This document shows, piece after piece, positions 3,769 through 25,993 of a stretch of DNA of 64,000 nucleotides. This DNA is from Fusobacteria bacterium ZRK30 (GTDB lineage Bacteria; Fusobacteriota; Fusobacteriia; Fusobacteriales; Fusobacteriaceae). Under the pieces are notes generated by a model. That model was not told the origin of the DNA and searched no databases. It worked only from the letters and a program-made list of their open reading frames with translations. A program made the position numbers and the translations under genes. The stretch covers positions 1,798,001 to 1,862,000 of the forward strand of contig CP102405.1 in the NCBI GenBank assembly GCA_024628785.1. The letters are read 5' to 3'. How positions within the stretch are numbered: the stretch's first letter is position 1; each line of letters begins with the position of its first letter.

Positions 3769-6700
3769 CTAATACTGTATCTCTATCCTTCTGTTTTTTC
3801 TCCTTCCTTCTAGAGTATCGTTACTCTCTAGAGGCTGGTTATTCCCTTCTCCCTTTGTTGATATTTCTACTTCTGGTAAGGTCTTTAATAATTGTGATTT
3901 AGCTGATTCTGCTCTTTTTAAGGATAGTTTTTCATTAAAAGCTTTTGGTCCTGTATTATCTGTGTGACCTGTCACCTTTATTTCTTCTAACTTTTTCCTT
4001 TGTATCTCTAAAGCGGCCTTATCCAGTTCTTTTTCCATTTCTCTTGTTAGTTTAGATGAGTTTAGATTAAAGCCGCTTATATTATTTATTATTGCTGTGT
4101 TATTAATTTCTTGGGTTTCGGTTTTTACATCAGCAATAGTATCTACTACCGTTGATGTTTTGATCTCTTTTTTTACATTTGATGTATTACTAGTTTTTGC
4201 AGGGATGAAATCTTTTAAATTATTAAATTTAAATCCTATTCCTACACTTGCATAGTATTCATCTCTATTTTCACTAGGAAGATATCCTCCTCCTACACTA
4301 TAGATTACTCCATTATTATGCTCTACATCAAAAGATCCCTTTATCTTTACTGTTCCCTTTTCCCTTTCTGGTACTAAGATATCAAAATCCGATCCTCCCT
4401 GAAATCTTCCGGTTACATAATCATTATCACTGCCATCTAAAGCATAAACGTAAGATACTCCTAATTTAACTTTTCCCTCTCCATCTTCAAATAGAATGTT
4501 TCTTACTAAATCCATTCCTAACTCTGTATCTACGTAATTAAATGACTCTTTATCTGTTTCTATACTCAGAGCGCCCTCTTCTTCTACTGATTCTTGACTT
4601 ATTCTGGCATAAGACAAATTAACTTTTGGTTCTAACGACCATTTATCATTTATTGCATAGTCATAAGTTAATCCTGCATATGCTGTAAATCCATTTGTTG
4701 ATATCTCCTCTTCATATTTGTTACTTTGATAGCTGTTTCCTGCTACCCTGATTGTATCGTAATCTCCATATTGATATCCTAATCCCGCTATTAATCTAAA
4801 GTTGTTTTTCTCTGTTTTTGTATACCCTCCTACATAGATACTATCTCCATCTATCTTTGACCCATTAGATATACTTGTATTACTATTTGCTCCTCCTGCA
4901 ATAAACCCAATAGATGTATCCTTACTTAGTCCGTATTCTGCAAGAGCATATCCTCCGTATATATCACTATCTGTATTAATATCTATACCATAATCATCAA
5001 ATCCATAATAATTACCCTTTATATGGTTTTTGTACCCTGAATCATAATCGTCTCCTCCAAATGTCAGCCCGCCGTAGATCATCCAGTTTCCTTCATTGGC
5101 TCTGAATGGGTTGTTAAGGACCATCTCGTTAAAAAGACCCATACTGTCTTTAGAAGTTCTCGCTGCATAACCATATGGATTTGCCATAAAGATATCGTTT
5201 AGGAGCACTAATAAATTTTCCCCTGCTTCATCCTCTGTTTTATCATTTCTATTTACTGTAGGATAAAGAGCATCTATATGAATAGCTGTATCATCACTAG
5301 AAAATACACTTTTGTACATTAAATCTAATTTCTCATAGTGGCTGTCAATAGCCCACTGAGGTACTTTCGGTTTATCTGGATTTGTTGGATCTGTTGGATC
5401 TGTTGGGTCTGTTGGGTCTGTTGGGTCTGTTGGGTCTGTTGGGTCTGTTGGGTCTGTTGGGTCTGTTGGGTCTGTTGGGTCTGTTGGGTCTGTTGGATCT
5501 GTTGGATCTGTTGGATCTGTTGGATCTATTGGATCTACTACCGGTCTTTCTACTGTAGGATTCCCAAATATCCAGTCTAATCCATCTCCTACTACTACTG
5601 TTACATCACTTCCATCTACCTGAGCTCTGCTTAGTATTGAATCTGTTCTTACATATAATTCATCGTCTAAAGTAGTGGTTCCCATAGAGATAGTGCCTCC
5701 ATCTCCCATTCCACTAGTAATTAAATTCAGTACTCCTCCACTTGTGTCTCCCTCTACAGACATTCCAACTCCTGATTCTCCAGTTATTGTCGCTCCACTA
5801 TCATATAATGCATGTCCTATGACTTTGTTATCATCATCTGTTTTTGTAGGGTCTACCCTTAGATTAAGACTGCTGTTTTTCTCTATATGGATACTTTCTC
5901 CCCCTTCTACCTTAGCTGTTTCATACAGAGTGGCTATCCCTTTTATTTTTATCTCTTCAAATCCACCTATTGTATGAAATAGATGGATTCCACTATTTAC
6001 TTCCTCTGTTTTCGTAGAGACAGCAGTGGTAGTTCCATCACCTAGGTTTAATACATCCTTTCCAGCTCCCCCATAGAGATCACCGTTTATCTGTACTGTG
6101 TTTGCTATTGTTAAGTTATCTATTCCATCTCCCAGGTCAACCTTTCCGTTTATTATAGATTCACCTGATAAATTAAGGGTATTATTACCACTATCTCCCT
6201 CTATTACACTGGTATATTCTAAAAGATCATCTGTATTATCATCTGGAGTTCCACTGTCGTTCCATTTTCCTATCCCTCCACCATTAAATATAGTGTCTGT
6301 AGCTGTTAGTGTAGATTCTCCATTTAGTGTAACTGATTTATCATATCCGTTAATTATAGAGTTTTCCAGTGTTACCTGACTATTATCAAGGGTTAAAGCT
6401 CCTGTCCCGACTCCTGCTCCATTTATTATGTAATTCTCATAAACTGTATCTGCAGCTACCAGATGATGGCTGTCTGCCCCGTTCTCTGTAGGAAATATCT
6501 CTGCGTTTAATATGGTATAGGTAGTTCCATTGATATCCATTGTTCCTCCAGAACCATTGGTTATTCCTCCTATAGTTCTATTTTCATCGTTATTAAATTT
6601 TATCTCTATCCCATAGTTTTTGTACTGATCTTCTGTCAACCCTTCTATTCCTGTAAGACCTCCATATACTTCATAATCAACTATATCATCTATAGGTCTT

Positions 6701-14744: not shown

Positions 14745-15110
14745 TTAATCAATCTTTTCCCCATCTTTATAATTCATTTTTAGTTTAATTTCTCCATTTT
14801 CATAATAAGCGATTGATTCTCCGTCTTTTTCCCCGCCTTTATAATTTGCTTTAAGTTTGATTTCTCCACCTTTATAATAGGTGAGCCATTCTCCATCTTT
14901 TTTCCCATTTTTATAATTCCCTTTAAACATAACCTTTCCATTTTCACAGTATCCAATAACTTCTGCATTTTTTAATTTATTTTTAAAATGTCTCTCAGGT
15001 TTCATATTTCGTTCATATGATTGACTTTGATCAATTGATTTTCTATAACCAATTAAACTTATTTTAATTACTGATATCAATAATAACAGCAGTAACAGTA
15101 TTTTTTTCAT
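14745..15110 (-). CDS. YwqK/MORN-like repeat protein
   Basis: 121 residues with an N-terminal hydrophobic segment (signal or anchor) and three repeats of the form NGxxxxKxNYKxGxxDGExxxYY between residues 55 and 121. Such repeats are called the YwqK family and are often annotated as antitoxin-like, without strong proof. No toxin gene is adjacent. A second, larger member is at 25505-25993. Confidence 0.75.
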   Translation of the reverse strand: MKKILLLLLLLISVIKISLIGYRKSIDQSQSYERNMKPERHFKNKLKNAEVIGYCENGKVMFKGNYKNGKKDGEWLTYYKGGEIKLKANYKGGEKDGESIAYYENGEIKLKMNYKDGEKID

Positions 15111-16331: not shown

Positions 16332-17147
16332 TTAAAAATCGTATCTCAAGCCTAATCCCATAAAATAATTTATTTGACTATTAACAATAGGAGAGTCTCC
16401 AATTTCATTTCCTATATATTGTATTTCTGCTATTGTAAACATAGACCATTTTGATGTGAAATTATATTTTGCCGTTAGGCCAACTGATGAAGCAAGCTCA
16501 AAATCATCAGGATTATAGACCTGGTTTAATTCTGTATTTTTAGGATTATTAACTTCATCTTCAGTTATACCGAAATAATAATCAACCATGTCGCTATCTA
16601 ATAATGTGAGGTTGATCTGAGGAATAACCAAGAATTTTTTTGTTATAAAAATAGGTCTGATTATAGATATTTTACCTGAGTTACCTCTTTCTCCTCCTCT
16701 TATTTCAGTTAGGAGTTTAATATCTTGATATTTTGTCTCATAACTTAATCTAAGTCCAAATTCTACTTGTGTTTTTCTGTCATTGATTCCTTTATAACCC
16801 TTTTCCATATCTGAATTATTGAGTTGCGTTCCCCCAATCACTCCTCCAATACCTTGTAAAGAAAGCCCACCAAATAACTGTGAAAATCCAGTAATAGAAG
16901 TTTGAGAATTTAATTCTTTTTTATAACCGACTTCAGTACCTAAAATATAAAAATTTTTGCTGACTAAACCTATAATAGGAACATAACGTGTATTTTTTTC
17001 ATCGTTCTTATAAAGTTTACTCCCATATCCTCCCATGAATCCTAAAGAAATTTTATAATCTTGCTCATTTCTTCTTTTGTTCATCTCATTTTCTGAAAAA
17101 CTTAATGCAGACAATAAAATAAAAACTACTAAAATTATTTTTTTCAT
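16332..17147 (-). CDS. MipA/OmpV family outer membrane protein
   Basis: 271 residues with a signal peptide (cut near SFSE), amphipathic beta strands throughout, and a terminal Phe as needed by the barrel-insertion machinery. The segment DSDMVDYYFGI matches the MipA/OmpV signature (YFGV). The family forms outer-membrane barrels linked to envelope remodelling or small-molecule passage. It is divergent from a Crp/Fnr-type regulator and shares a palindrome with it. A -10-like TAAAAT lies 31 bp from the palindrome centre, in the position expected of an activated promoter. Confidence 0.85.
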   Translation of the reverse strand: MKKIILVVFILLSALSFSENEMNKRRNEQDYKISLGFMGGYGSKLYKNDEKNTRYVPIIGLVSKNFYILGTEVGYKKELNSQTSITGFSQLFGGLSLQGIGGVIGGTQLNNSDMEKGYKGINDRKTQVEFGLRLSYETKYQDIKLLTEIRGGERGNSGKISIIRPIFITKKFLVIPQINLTLLDSDMVDYYFGITEDEVNNPKNTELNQVYNPDDFELASSVGLTAKYNFTSKWSMFTIAEIQYIGNEIGDSPIVNSQINYFMGLGLRYDF

Positions 17148-19517: not shown

Positions 19518-19598
19518 CTAAACTAAAATATAAGGAGTATTTAAAATAAAAAAAAGGCTACTTTCAACCCCTTTAGGGTGCTCAGTAGCCTTTTCTAT
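19518..19598 (+). ncRNA. Candidate small RNA (about 80 nt)
   Basis: Begins about seven bases after the -10 at 19506 and ends at the GGCTACT / AGTAGCC hairpin with T-rich tail. An AAGGAG is present near its middle, but no start codon follows it, so it is probably non-coding. It overlaps, antisense, the 3' terminator of the permease / di-cysteine peptide unit. Confidence 0.45.
19549..19598 (-). terminator. Bidirectional terminator after the permease operon
   Basis: GGCTACT..CCC / GGG..AGTAGCC. Read on the minus strand it ends in eight T; on the plus strand in TTTTCTATTTTT. Bases 19599-19740 hold no firm gene; a 35-codon frame there with a CSC motif lacks a ribosome site. Confidence 0.85.
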
Positions 19599-19740: not shown

Positions 19741-19902
19741 TTATTTCAATTTAGCAGCAGCAATCTCTTTATCCAAGTCTAAGGTGCAGCAAGATTTCTT
19801 TTTAGGTTCTTTCTGTTCTTTGACTTTATCTATCTCCTTATCTAAATCTACCAAACAACACCCTGTATCTTTTTTCCCAAGAATCTTCTTTAATAATGAC
19901 AT
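19741..19902 (-). CDS. Small di-cysteine repeat protein (53 aa)
   Basis: A soluble basic peptide containing two copies of one unit: GCCLVDLDKEI (Cys15-16) and SCCTLDLDKEI (Cys38-39), separated by a Lys/Glu-rich linker. ATG at 19902 follows AAGGAG. It starts 23 bp after the permease stop, so it should be co-transcribed with it. Vicinal Cys pairs suggest binding of a thiophilic metal or metalloid, perhaps to hand it to the permease. The CC-x3-hydrophobic-DK unit also occurs at the C-terminus of the nearby sigma factor. I know no named family for it. Confidence 0.8.
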   Translation of the reverse strand: MSLLKKILGKKDTGCCLVDLDKEIDKVKEQKEPKKKSCCTLDLDKEIAAAKLK

Positions 19903-19925
19903 ATTTTCACTCCTTATATTTTAAT

Positions 19926-20882
19926 TTATATTATTGCATTAAACAAATACCCTACACCCATAATACCAATCCCAACAATTGAAATAAATATTCCAATCAG
20001 CTGAACCTTGATAACTTTTTTTAATAACAACATCTCCGGTAATGACAGAGCCACTGCTGCCATCATAAATGCCATTGTAGTTCCAACTCCAACTCCTTTT
20101 GCTATTAACGCTTCTGCTATAGGAATAATCCCTGCTGCATCTGTATAGAGAGGAATAGCTACTAATGTTGCAAATGGTACAGCGAAAAGATTATCAGCTC
20201 CTCCATATTTACCTAAAAATTCAGTAGGTGCCCAGTTATGAACAGCTGCTCCTATCCCAATCCCCACAATAATATATGGCAATAATTTCCCAACCACATC
20301 TTTAGTTTCCTTCCACGCATATATTAATCTTGTTTTCCCTCTATATACAGGTTCTTTAGTCTGATCTAGATGCATCTTATACACATATTCTTCAATATAT
20401 TTTTCAACCCCTAATTTTCCTATGATGAGGCCCCCCACAACACCTATTACTATTCCTGAAACTGCATATATAGTAGCAATTTTCCAACCGAATATACTGA
20501 GAAGTATAATAAAAGCAGCTTCATTTACAATAGGAGAAGTTATCAGAAATGAAAAAACTACTCCTGTGGGAATCCCTGATTCAATAAAACCTATAAATAA
20601 TGGTACGCTGGAACAAGAACAAAAAGGTGTAACTACTCCTAATAAAGAGGCCATCAAGTTTGATTTTACCCCCTTATGAGTCTCCATAAATCTTTTAATT
20701 TTAGATGTAGAGATAAAAGTTCTGATGATTGAAATTATAAAAATTCCTAAACCTAAAAGAATTATTATCATGCTGGCTGCATGTAAAAAATAAAAAACTA
20801 CCTCTCCTAATTTAGACTCCAACGATAACCCAAAGACATTTTCAACTAACTTAACCCACTGTGTATCTAACCAAGTAAACAT
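19926..20882 (-). CDS. UPF0718/ArsP-like permease
   Basis: 318 residues with about eight membrane helices in two halves. The hallmark TPFCSCSSVPLF (Cys88, Cys90) and LITSPIVNEAAF identify the permease family that includes ArsP (efflux of trivalent organoarsenicals) and the SO_0444 metal transporters. The cargo is probably a thiophilic metal or metalloid; which one cannot be told. The gene is preceded by an ECF-type promoter like that of the sigma gene upstream and followed by a di-cysteine peptide gene. Confidence 0.88.
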   Translation of the reverse strand: MFTWLDTQWVKLVENVFGLSLESKLGEVVFYFLHAASMIIILLGLGIFIISIIRTFISTSKIKRFMETHKGVKSNLMASLLGVVTPFCSCSSVPLFIGFIESGIPTGVVFSFLITSPIVNEAAFIILLSIFGWKIATIYAVSGIVIGVVGGLIIGKLGVEKYIEEYVYKMHLDQTKEPVYRGKTRLIYAWKETKDVVGKLLPYIIVGIGIGAAVHNWAPTEFLGKYGGADNLFAVPFATLVAIPLYTDAAGIIPIAEALIAKGVGVGTTMAFMMAAVALSLPEMLLLKKVIKVQLIGIFISIVGIGIMGVGYLFNAII

Positions 20883-20920
20883 AATTGCATCTCCTTTAAC
20901 ATTTTTTTCTTAACACTTAT

Positions 20921-20949
20921 ATAGACGACAATGAATAAAAAAAGTTGCA
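20921..20949 (-). promoter_or_regulatory. ECF-type promoter of the permease unit
   Basis: On the minus strand: TGCAAC (-35, 20949-20944), 17 bp, GTCTAT (-10, 20926-20921), with the -10 reading CGTCTATATAAG. The AAC / CGTCTA pattern is the classic ECF promoter form. It matches the sigma-gene promoter at 21651-21679. Confidence 0.8.
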
Positions 20950-20966
20950 TATTTTTTATTGGATAA

Positions 20967-20999
20967 TAAAAAAACAGCAAATTAATTTACTGTTTTTAA
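20967..20999 (-). terminator. Terminator of the sigma gene
   Basis: AACAG.AAAT / ATTT.CTGTT stem followed on the minus strand by a T run. It separates the sigma gene from the permease, which has its own promoter. Confidence 0.7.
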
Positions 21000-21075
21000 A
21001 GTTTTCATAATGTTAGATCTGCTCCGAGTTACTAGTATTTAGCCGATTCTTTATTGTCAAAAATATTACTCAGTT

Positions 21076-21612
21076 TTATCTTTTTTTATAGTCTAAAATA
21101 TTTCCAAACTTGTCTATTTGAAAAACACAGCACTCATCCAGCTGATTTTTTAACTTTTCCTTTGCTCTTTTCAACCTGGATTTAGATGTATTTTCCTTGA
21201 TCTCTAATCTCTTACTTATCTCTTTGTGACTCATATCTTCGAATTCATACAGTTTAATTAATTTCTTTGAATCCACAGGAAGTTCCTCTATAATTTTTTT
21301 CATGCTGACCAATATCTCATCATTTAAATTATCTTCCTCTTCCTCGGTCATCTCTATATGATGTTCTTCAAATTCCACCTTTTTCAGTCTATAACATCTT
21401 TTATAGCAGTCATTTATGGTATTCCTGGTTATTTGGTATATCCAAGATACTATTTTTTTTTCATCATTGAGTGAGTCAATATTTTTATGCAGTTTAATAT
21501 AGATATCTTGAAGAATATCCTCTGCATCCTCTTTATTTTTTATTCTTTTCTTTATAAAAAATAATAATTGGGTATTTAATTCTTCCCAAACCTTCAATAA
21601 TTTTTTTTCCAT
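21076..21612 (-). CDS. sigZ: ECF sigma factor, SigZ-like
   Basis: 178 residues. Region 2 includes KEDAEDILQDIYIKLHK and VSWIYQITRNTINDCYK; region 4 includes LPVDSKKLIKLYEFEDMSHKEISKRL. The tail DECCVFQIDKFGNILDY matches the SigZ group, whose C-terminus carries a conserved CC pair. No anti-sigma gene is adjacent, so the sigma factor may sense its signal through its own Cys residues. The gene is preceded by a promoter of the same type as the permease promoter, which implies autoregulation. The symbol is by resemblance. Confidence 0.85.
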   Translation of the reverse strand: MEKKLLKVWEELNTQLLFFIKKRIKNKEDAEDILQDIYIKLHKNIDSLNDEKKIVSWIYQITRNTINDCYKRCYRLKKVEFEEHHIEMTEEEEDNLNDEILVSMKKIIEELPVDSKKLIKLYEFEDMSHKEISKRLEIKENTSKSRLKRAKEKLKNQLDECCVFQIDKFGNILDYKKR

Positions 21613-21650
21613 GGGTATAATATCTCCTTTATTTATAATAGTATACTTAT

Positions 21651-21679
21651 ATAGACTTTATAATTAAAAAAAAGTTGCA
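21651..21679 (-). promoter_or_regulatory. ECF-type promoter of the sigma gene
   Basis: On the minus strand: TGCAAC (21679-21674), 17 bp, GTCTAT (21656-21651), then ATAAG. Same elements and spacing as 20921-20949; flanks TATGCAACTTTTTTT and CTATATAAG are also shared or nearly so. Confidence 0.8.
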
Positions 21680-25380: not shown

Positions 25381-25504
25381 CTCATTATTTTAAAAAGAAA
25401 TCTCTTATATTAACATGAGGAAAATTAAAATAAACTTAACCTTGACTTATTTAATATTAAGATATATTATTTTAATAGAAAAAGACTACAAGGGAAGTGA
25501 AAAA

Positions 25505-25993
25505 GTGAAAAAAAGATTATTAGTTGTATTTGTTTTATGTTTAATTTTAATAAGTTGTGAAAAAAGAGAAGAACTATTTTCTAATACACAAAAAAAAGAT
25601 GGCCTTATTTATATCACAAATGAAGGGAGACCATATACAGGGGTTTTAGTTACACACTATAAAGATGGACAGATCAAGGAAAAACTTAATTTTAAACAGG
25701 GTAAGTACGACGGGAAAAATTTTTCTTATTATAAAAACGGGCAGATCAAAGAAAAATTTAATTTTAAAAATGATATGTTAGATGGAGAAGTGATCTCCTA
25801 CTATGAAGATGGACAGATTGAAGCTAAATTTAATTTTAAACAGGGCAAGCAGGAAGGAGAAAATTTTTCTTTTTATAAAAATGGACAGATTGAAATGAAA
25901 CTTGATTTCAAAGAGGGTCAATTAGATGGGAAGATGATCTCATATTATGAAGATGGACAGATCAAAGATGAAATAAATTGGCAGGAATGGTAA
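25505..25993 (+). CDS. YwqK/MORN-like repeat lipoprotein
   Basis: 162 residues from a GTG at 25505 with a purine-rich site (AGGGAAG) upstream; the longer frame to 25415 lacks a site and would bury the signal. Lipoprotein signal with lipobox LISC. Five or so repeats of the form YYKDGQIKEKxNFKxGxxDGE fill residues 50-160. This is the YwqK family, often labelled antitoxin-like; no toxin is adjacent. It is related to 14745-15110 but longer and lipidated. Confidence 0.8.
   Translation: MKKRLLVVFVLCLILISCEKREELFSNTQKKDGLIYITNEGRPYTGVLVTHYKDGQIKEKLNFKQGKYDGKNFSYYKNGQIKEKFNFKNDMLDGEVISYYEDGQIEAKFNFKQGKQEGENFSFYKNGQIEMKLDFKEGQLDGKMISYYEDGQIKDEINWQEW

Follow-up and report, generated by a model that had tools for sequence, protein, structure and literature searches.

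Introduction

A description of the sigma factor SigZ of Bacillus subtilis was published in 1997; a review from 2020 still gives its role as 'not yet determined' (PMC7522486). CorE and CorE2 of Myxococcus xanthus (former ECF44, ECF238) are ECF sigma factors that have no anti-sigma factor and carry a metal-sensing Cys-rich tail (PMC8999054).

The arsI-acr3-arsC and arsP operons are under the control of the repressor ArsR. Arsenite is bound by the protein ArsD via vicinal Cys pairs. ArsD is an arsenite chaperone (PMC6205960), and ArsP exports trivalent organoarsenicals such as methylarsenite, which are cleaved by ArsI and made by ArsM (PMC6205960, PMC11653729). The permease superfamily PF03773 also includes the SaoE transporters and SO_0444, for which the export of Cu and Zn was reported (PMC3219624). 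The SAO system includes SaoC, a Cys-Cys-COOH protein (PMC13188914). A literature search for SigZ or ECF sigma factors in connection with arsenic yielded no relevant link.

Here, a locus in a 64-kb stretch of genomic DNA (referred to as "the window") is compared with these systems. With SigZ of B. subtilis (TIGR02959 / PRK09637) its sigma factor shares the best full-length family match, a tail with CC, D and GN, and a promoter type that is also found beside sigZ in related Priestia plasmids; it differs in lying just under the curated cut-off and in being encoded together with an exporter and a small peptide. The likeness to CorE comprises the missing anti-sigma factor, cysteines both in the tail and close to the sigma2-sigma4 linker, and a tie to metal handling. 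CorE differs in having a CXC motif in the linker and a Cys-rich domain, while the window sigma factor has a CxxxC motif and only one Cys pair in its short tail; neither a CXC in the sigma2-sigma4 linker nor a Cys-rich C-terminal domain was found in it. The SigZ-linked genes are of the same kinds as the targets of ArsR (ArsI, ACR3, ArsC, ArsP-type permease), but SigZ, as a sigma factor, would control them positively and not by repression. The permease has the superfamily in common with SO_0444 and SaoE, yet it scores far below both curated cut-offs. In contrast to ArsD, the CC peptide is much shorter and repeat-like, and no sequence relation between the two was detected.

Results

Organization of the module

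Three genes follow each other on the minus strand of the window, encoding a SigZ-like ECF sigma factor, an ArsP_1 permease and a 53-aa peptide with CC pairs (Table 1). The sigma gene and the permease gene look like separate transcription units. Because hairpins with T runs close both the sigma unit and the permease-peptide unit, the promoter upstream of the permease gene probably drives a transcript of its own. No anti-sigma-like gene was found beside the sigma gene when the open reading frames of the neighbourhood were analyzed with Pfam, which agrees with the preliminary description of this DNA. Furthermore, no Rfam family was detected between positions 17000 and 24000, and no further arsenic gene was seen adjoining the module in this genome. 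Elsewhere in the window, two proteins contain MORN-like/YwqK-type repeats (14745-15110 and 25415-25993).

Table 1. Features of the module and their positions in the window.
Feature	Position	Strand	Evidence
SigZ-type promoter of the sigma gene, TGCAAC-N17-GTCTATATAAG	21646..21679	-	Genome, Fusobacteriota and matrix scans
SigZ-like ECF sigma factor gene (178 aa)	21076..21612	-	NCBIfam SigZ models; Pfam sigma-70 regions 2 and 4
Codons 69-73, CxxxC, end of sigma region 2 / start of linker	21394..21408	-	Kept in P. maris
Codons Cys161-Cys162 (CC, then D, GN), SigZ tail, candidate sensor site	21127..21132	-	Conserved in SigZ of other phyla
Terminator-like hairpin with T run at its end, between sigma and permease genes	20970..20997	-	Fold -9.8 kcal/mol, z -3.3
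SigZ-type promoter of the permease-peptide unit, TGCAAC-N17-GTCTATATAAG	20916..20949	-	Conserved upstream of the permease gene in G054 (P. maris) and G055
ArsP_1 family permease (318 aa), TPFCSCSS motif	19926..20882	-	PF03773, 216.9 bits
53-aa peptide, two CC pairs	19741..19902	-	Homologues in G054 and G055
Strong intrinsic-terminator-like hairpin with T run, end of the permease-peptide unit	19550..19596	-	Fold -23.4 kcal/mol, z -4.6

The sigma factor

The sigma factor had been called SigZ-like in the preliminary description. Two NCBIfam models of SigZ are indeed by far its best families, with scores below the curated cut-offs (PRK09637, 169.4 bits versus 212; TIGR02959, 160.9 bits versus 168.65; next family, 101), and Pfam sigma-70 regions 2 and 4 were matched. 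Judged by best match, tail and promoter, the protein can be regarded as SigZ-like, just under the curated score.

An alignment revealed that the CC / D / GN tail is common to the window sigma factor and SigZ of Priestia, Vibrio, Photobacterium and Hymenobacter. Of 37 SigZ proteins from Bacteroidota, 30 have a CC pair among their last 45 residues, and many SigZ tails contain further Cys residues; in the window sigma factor Cys161 and Cys162 are the only ones in a tail of about 20 residues. As the tail CC is shared with SigZ of other phyla, it is a trait of the family and not special to this module. The CxxxC motif at residues 69-73 is kept in Propionigenium maris, reads CYRKC in a further genome of the window's genus (G055) beyond a frameshift (see below), and is absent from SigZ of Priestia and Vibrio. 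An AlphaFold model of the sigma factor was weak (mean pLDDT 69, pTM 0.52) and did not place the Cys pairs. Poor patterns derived from the linker region of the sigma alignment retrieved only P. maris and other ECF sigma factors in a search of contigs.

The permease and the CC peptide

The permease was verified to be of the ArsP type, since it exceeds the cut-off of PF03773 (ArsP_1) by far (216.9 bits versus 32.3, model positions 3-293 of 294). It does not belong to the SO_0444 family NF033936 (103.5 bits, cut-off 300) or to SaoE (NF040736; 118.3 bits, cut-off 325). The window permease is 78% identical to its copies in P. maris and G055. The window's genome encodes a second ArsP_1 permease with 57% identity (L160:5600-6592), the gene of which is followed by a gene for a CobW-type GTPase and has no SigZ-type promoter. 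Fusobacteriota also have further members of this superfamily (about 45% identity); their genes often adjoin those for ArsR-, ACR3-, ArsC- or thioredoxin-like proteins and are without the SigZ motif.

The 53-residue peptide that had been noticed downstream of the permease gene is confirmed, with CC pairs at residues 15-16 and 38-39. It has no meaningful family match in NCBIfam or Pfam and no match on plasmids, and a search in 296 Bacteroidota genomes, for which a positive control was lacking, gave zero matches. Among 98 Fusobacteriota genomes relatives occur only in P. maris and G055; they have 65 aa and end in CCG. C-terminal CC tails were also observed in neighbours of SigZ in Vibrionaceae, i.e., a GST-like protein and an ArsR-like regulator (L081:4157-4864; L082:4697-4990, 5628-6362). 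Together with the tails of ArsI proteins and of the CC peptides (SSCCG), vicinal-Cys tails recur in SigZ-linked proteins.

The promoter pair and its conservation in Fusobacteriota

The preliminary description had pointed to a pair of promoters with TGCAAC, a 17-bp spacer and GTCTAT upstream of the sigma and permease genes. The pair is present on the minus strand, and the 17-base spacer applies to both, to TGCAACTTTTTTTTAATTATAAAGTCTATATAAG (21679..21646) upstream of the sigma gene and to TGCAACTTTTTTTATTCATTGTCGTCTATATAAG (20949..20916) upstream of the permease-peptide unit. At 0, 1 or 2 mismatches the full motif yielded just these two sites in the whole 3.6-Mb genome, while 30 more appeared genome-wide at three mismatches, which equals the rate of a reversed-pattern control. 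The bare motif TGCAAC-N16-18-GTCTAT has one extra match in the genome, which is located inside a coding sequence elsewhere.

The sigma factor, the close form of the permease (78% identity) and the CC peptide occur in the same three of 98 Fusobacteriota genomes, each of which has all three genes, and two gene orders were found: sigma-permease-peptide in P. maris (G054) and permease-peptide-sigma in G055. The earlier claim had been made dependent on conservation of the promoters in related genomes. All three carriers have retained the permease promoter, which reads TGCAACCTTTTTTGAAGTTTGGACTCTATG in P. maris and TGCAACTTTTTTTTTAAAATTGACTCTATG in G055; upstream of the sigma gene of P. maris no clear promoter site was found. 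A refined motif had six matches in the 98 genomes, four of them upstream of module genes in the three carriers. Of the remaining two, the match in G006 is apparently a chance site. The other lies in G061, a genome of the window's genus, in which a SigZ-type promoter precedes a short remnant of sigZ and, after it, a gene for a cation-diffusion-facilitator-like transporter (L187:1503-2646). Promoter and remnant are a putative trace of lost autoregulation, and the promoter may have been taken over. In G055 the sigZ reading frame is broken by one A in an A-tract, which has 8 instead of 9 (L006:1520-1530), the rest of the protein being conserved; a sequencing error, a slippage site or a very recent loss may be the reason.

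A SigZ-linked promoter type in other phyla

SigZ loci of Bacteroidota have a recurrent TGCGTC-TTTTT-N11-CGTCTA or CGACTA upstream of sigZ and of ars genes, with the spacing of the window sites. The motif TGCGTC-YTTT-N12-13-CGWCTW was found 22 times in the 36 Bacteroidota genomes with SigZ versus once in the reversed control, and 18 of the 22 sites are at most 6 kb away from sigZ. Because the first scan had been seeded by the window motif, two extra checks were added, a 6-mer count and a matrix. In the unseeded de novo count, TGCGTC came first among the words upstream of ars genes (12 of 15, as against at most 10 after shuffling), and after removal of close relatives it was present in 8 of 11, a value that the shuffled maximum of 8 equals. 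It was also the most enriched 6-mer upstream of sigZ (12 versus 1.5 expected). A matrix built from the Bacteroidota sites alone ranked the window promoters first (22.96) and second (19.01) in the 64 kb, followed by a site with 14.84, and simulated maxima did not exceed 13.8, so that both window promoters are of the SigZ-linked type; as the Bacteroidota sites were initially found by the seeded search, this test is not fully independent. With the same matrix, the best site in Priestia faces an aldo/keto reductase gene beside sigZ, and sites just upstream of a GST gene were detected in Vibrio cortegadensis and in Photobacterium.

A likeness of the two window promoters by mere chance, for which it could be argued that T-rich spacers are frequent in AT-rich genomes, is hardly credible. 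It was rejected in view of the uniqueness of the sites in the genome, the conservation upstream of the permease gene in relatives, and the top two ranks with a matrix trained in another phylum.

SigZ and arsenic genes in Bacteroidota

The Bacteroidota sample comprised 296 genomes, 36 of which have SigZ, with 37 SigZ loci (close relatives were tallied as separate loci). At 15 of these loci a gene for ArsI/CadI, ArsM or an ArsP-like permease is located downstream on the same strand, in some cases with ACR3 and ArsC, and at the other 22 the tested ArsI/ArsM/ArsP genes are absent nearby. Fourteen of the 296 genomes have ArsI/CadI, and 11 of these 14 are among the 36 with SigZ (odds ratio 38, p = 5e-9, close relatives tallied separately). 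The ArsI/CadI gene lies directly downstream of sigZ in 10 of 14 cases. In the three ArsI genomes in which SigZ was not detected, an ArsR-like gene precedes arsI, and hence sigZ-arsI-acr3-arsC and arsR-arsI-acr3-arsC represent alternative layouts. The ars-linked SigZ are scattered over the tree, so that the link extends beyond a single clade. The thiophilic-metalloid theme of the preliminary description thus finds its counterpart in arsenic genes that adjoin SigZ in other genomes.

SigZ-type sites were also seen upstream of genes for a PAP2-type phosphatase with a Cys tail, a secreted protein and a PhzF-like protein (L139, L146, L132-L134, L141, L148). As these genes have no known arsenic role, a wider regulon is possible.

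Discussion

It is considered fairly probable that the module is a stand-alone, self-amplifying SigZ switch without an anti-sigma factor, which senses a trivalent arsenical (or a related soft thiophile) via its Cys tail and induces export and a thiol peptide. The sigma factor would recognize TGCAAC-(T-rich)-N17-GTCTAT upstream of its own gene and of the permease-peptide unit. The C-terminal Cys pair, perhaps together with the CxxxC that closes region 2, would bind a soft thiophilic toxicant, for which a trivalent arsenical (e.g., methylarsenite) is the most likely candidate, and binding would make the sigma factor active. The active sigma factor would then amplify itself and induce permease-mediated export, and the CC peptide would bind the toxicant or hand it over. 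Methylarsenite would unite the targets, because it is exported by ArsP, cleaved by ArsI and made by ArsM.

The preliminary description had envisaged a sigma factor that directly senses a thiophilic metal or metalloid, activates itself, and induces an exporter and a metal-binding peptide. This was borne out in part: self-regulation, a single promoter type, the permease-peptide unit as target, the missing anti-sigma factor and the thiophilic-metalloid theme are supported by sequence comparisons. On the same basis, the predicted regulon and autoregulation of the module are well supported and its putative link to arsenicals moderately, while we infer direct sensing by the sigma factor, the identity of the ligand and the role of the CC peptide.

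The family signal may exceed arsenic, since 22 of 37 Bacteroidota loci are without the tested ars genes and the sites in Priestia and Vibrio belong to an aldo/keto reductase and a GST. SigZ might thus respond to thiol-reactive electrophiles or disulfide stress in general, with the arsenic genes as one target set and the permease as exporter of another thiol adduct. The same loci, including the GST genes in Photobacterium, speak for this explanation, yet it is rated as unlikely, because most ArsI/CadI genes in the Bacteroidota sample directly follow sigZ, because this position is occupied by an ArsR-like gene in the genomes in which SigZ was not detected, and because the window module targets an ArsP-type permease together with a CC peptide and not a redox enzyme. 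Somewhat less likely still is an efflux switch for Cu, Zn or Cd after the manner of SO_0444 and CorE/CorE2, to which arsenic would be incidental. In its favour, cells under Zn or Cu stress need SO_0444 (PMC3219624), Cd and Cu induce a relative (PMC10092412), CorE and CorE2 sense metals without an anti-sigma factor, and the sigZ remnant of G061 precedes a cation-diffusion-facilitator-like gene; however, the window permease is far under the SO_0444 cut-off, and the recurrent neighbours of SigZ (ArsM, ArsI, ACR3, ArsC) are arsenic genes. It also seems improbable, to a higher degree than for the other two, that the activity of the sigma factor is constitutive or depends on an unlinked regulator, with a purely structural Cys tail in a plain autoregulated expression unit. 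The searched literature shows no direct sensing for any SigZ and the structure model is too poor to judge the tail, but Fusobacteriota, Bacillota and Gammaproteobacteria have the Cys pair in common, and there are many tails with even more Cys.

Beyond the window, it is tempting to speculate, at somewhat less than an even chance, that SigZ is a cross-phylum, anti-sigma-free ECF family that directly senses trivalent (organo)arsenicals by a vicinal-Cys tail, uses a TGCRWC-T5-N11-CGTCTA promoter and replaces ArsR in arsenic operons. The window would then hold the version of an anaerobe, with an ArsP exporter and a new family of CC-repeat peptides.

The promoter consensus, the neighbouring arsenic genes and the alternation with ArsR supply concrete candidate inducers and target genes for SigZ. 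The old question of its role in B. subtilis, given as 'not yet determined', thus becomes accessible to experiment. The activation of arsP in an anaerobic arsenic methylator was described as 'mechanism unknown' (PMC11653729), and the proposed role of SigZ may bear on it. If the proposal is true, arsenic resistance would gain a positive control by a sigma factor.
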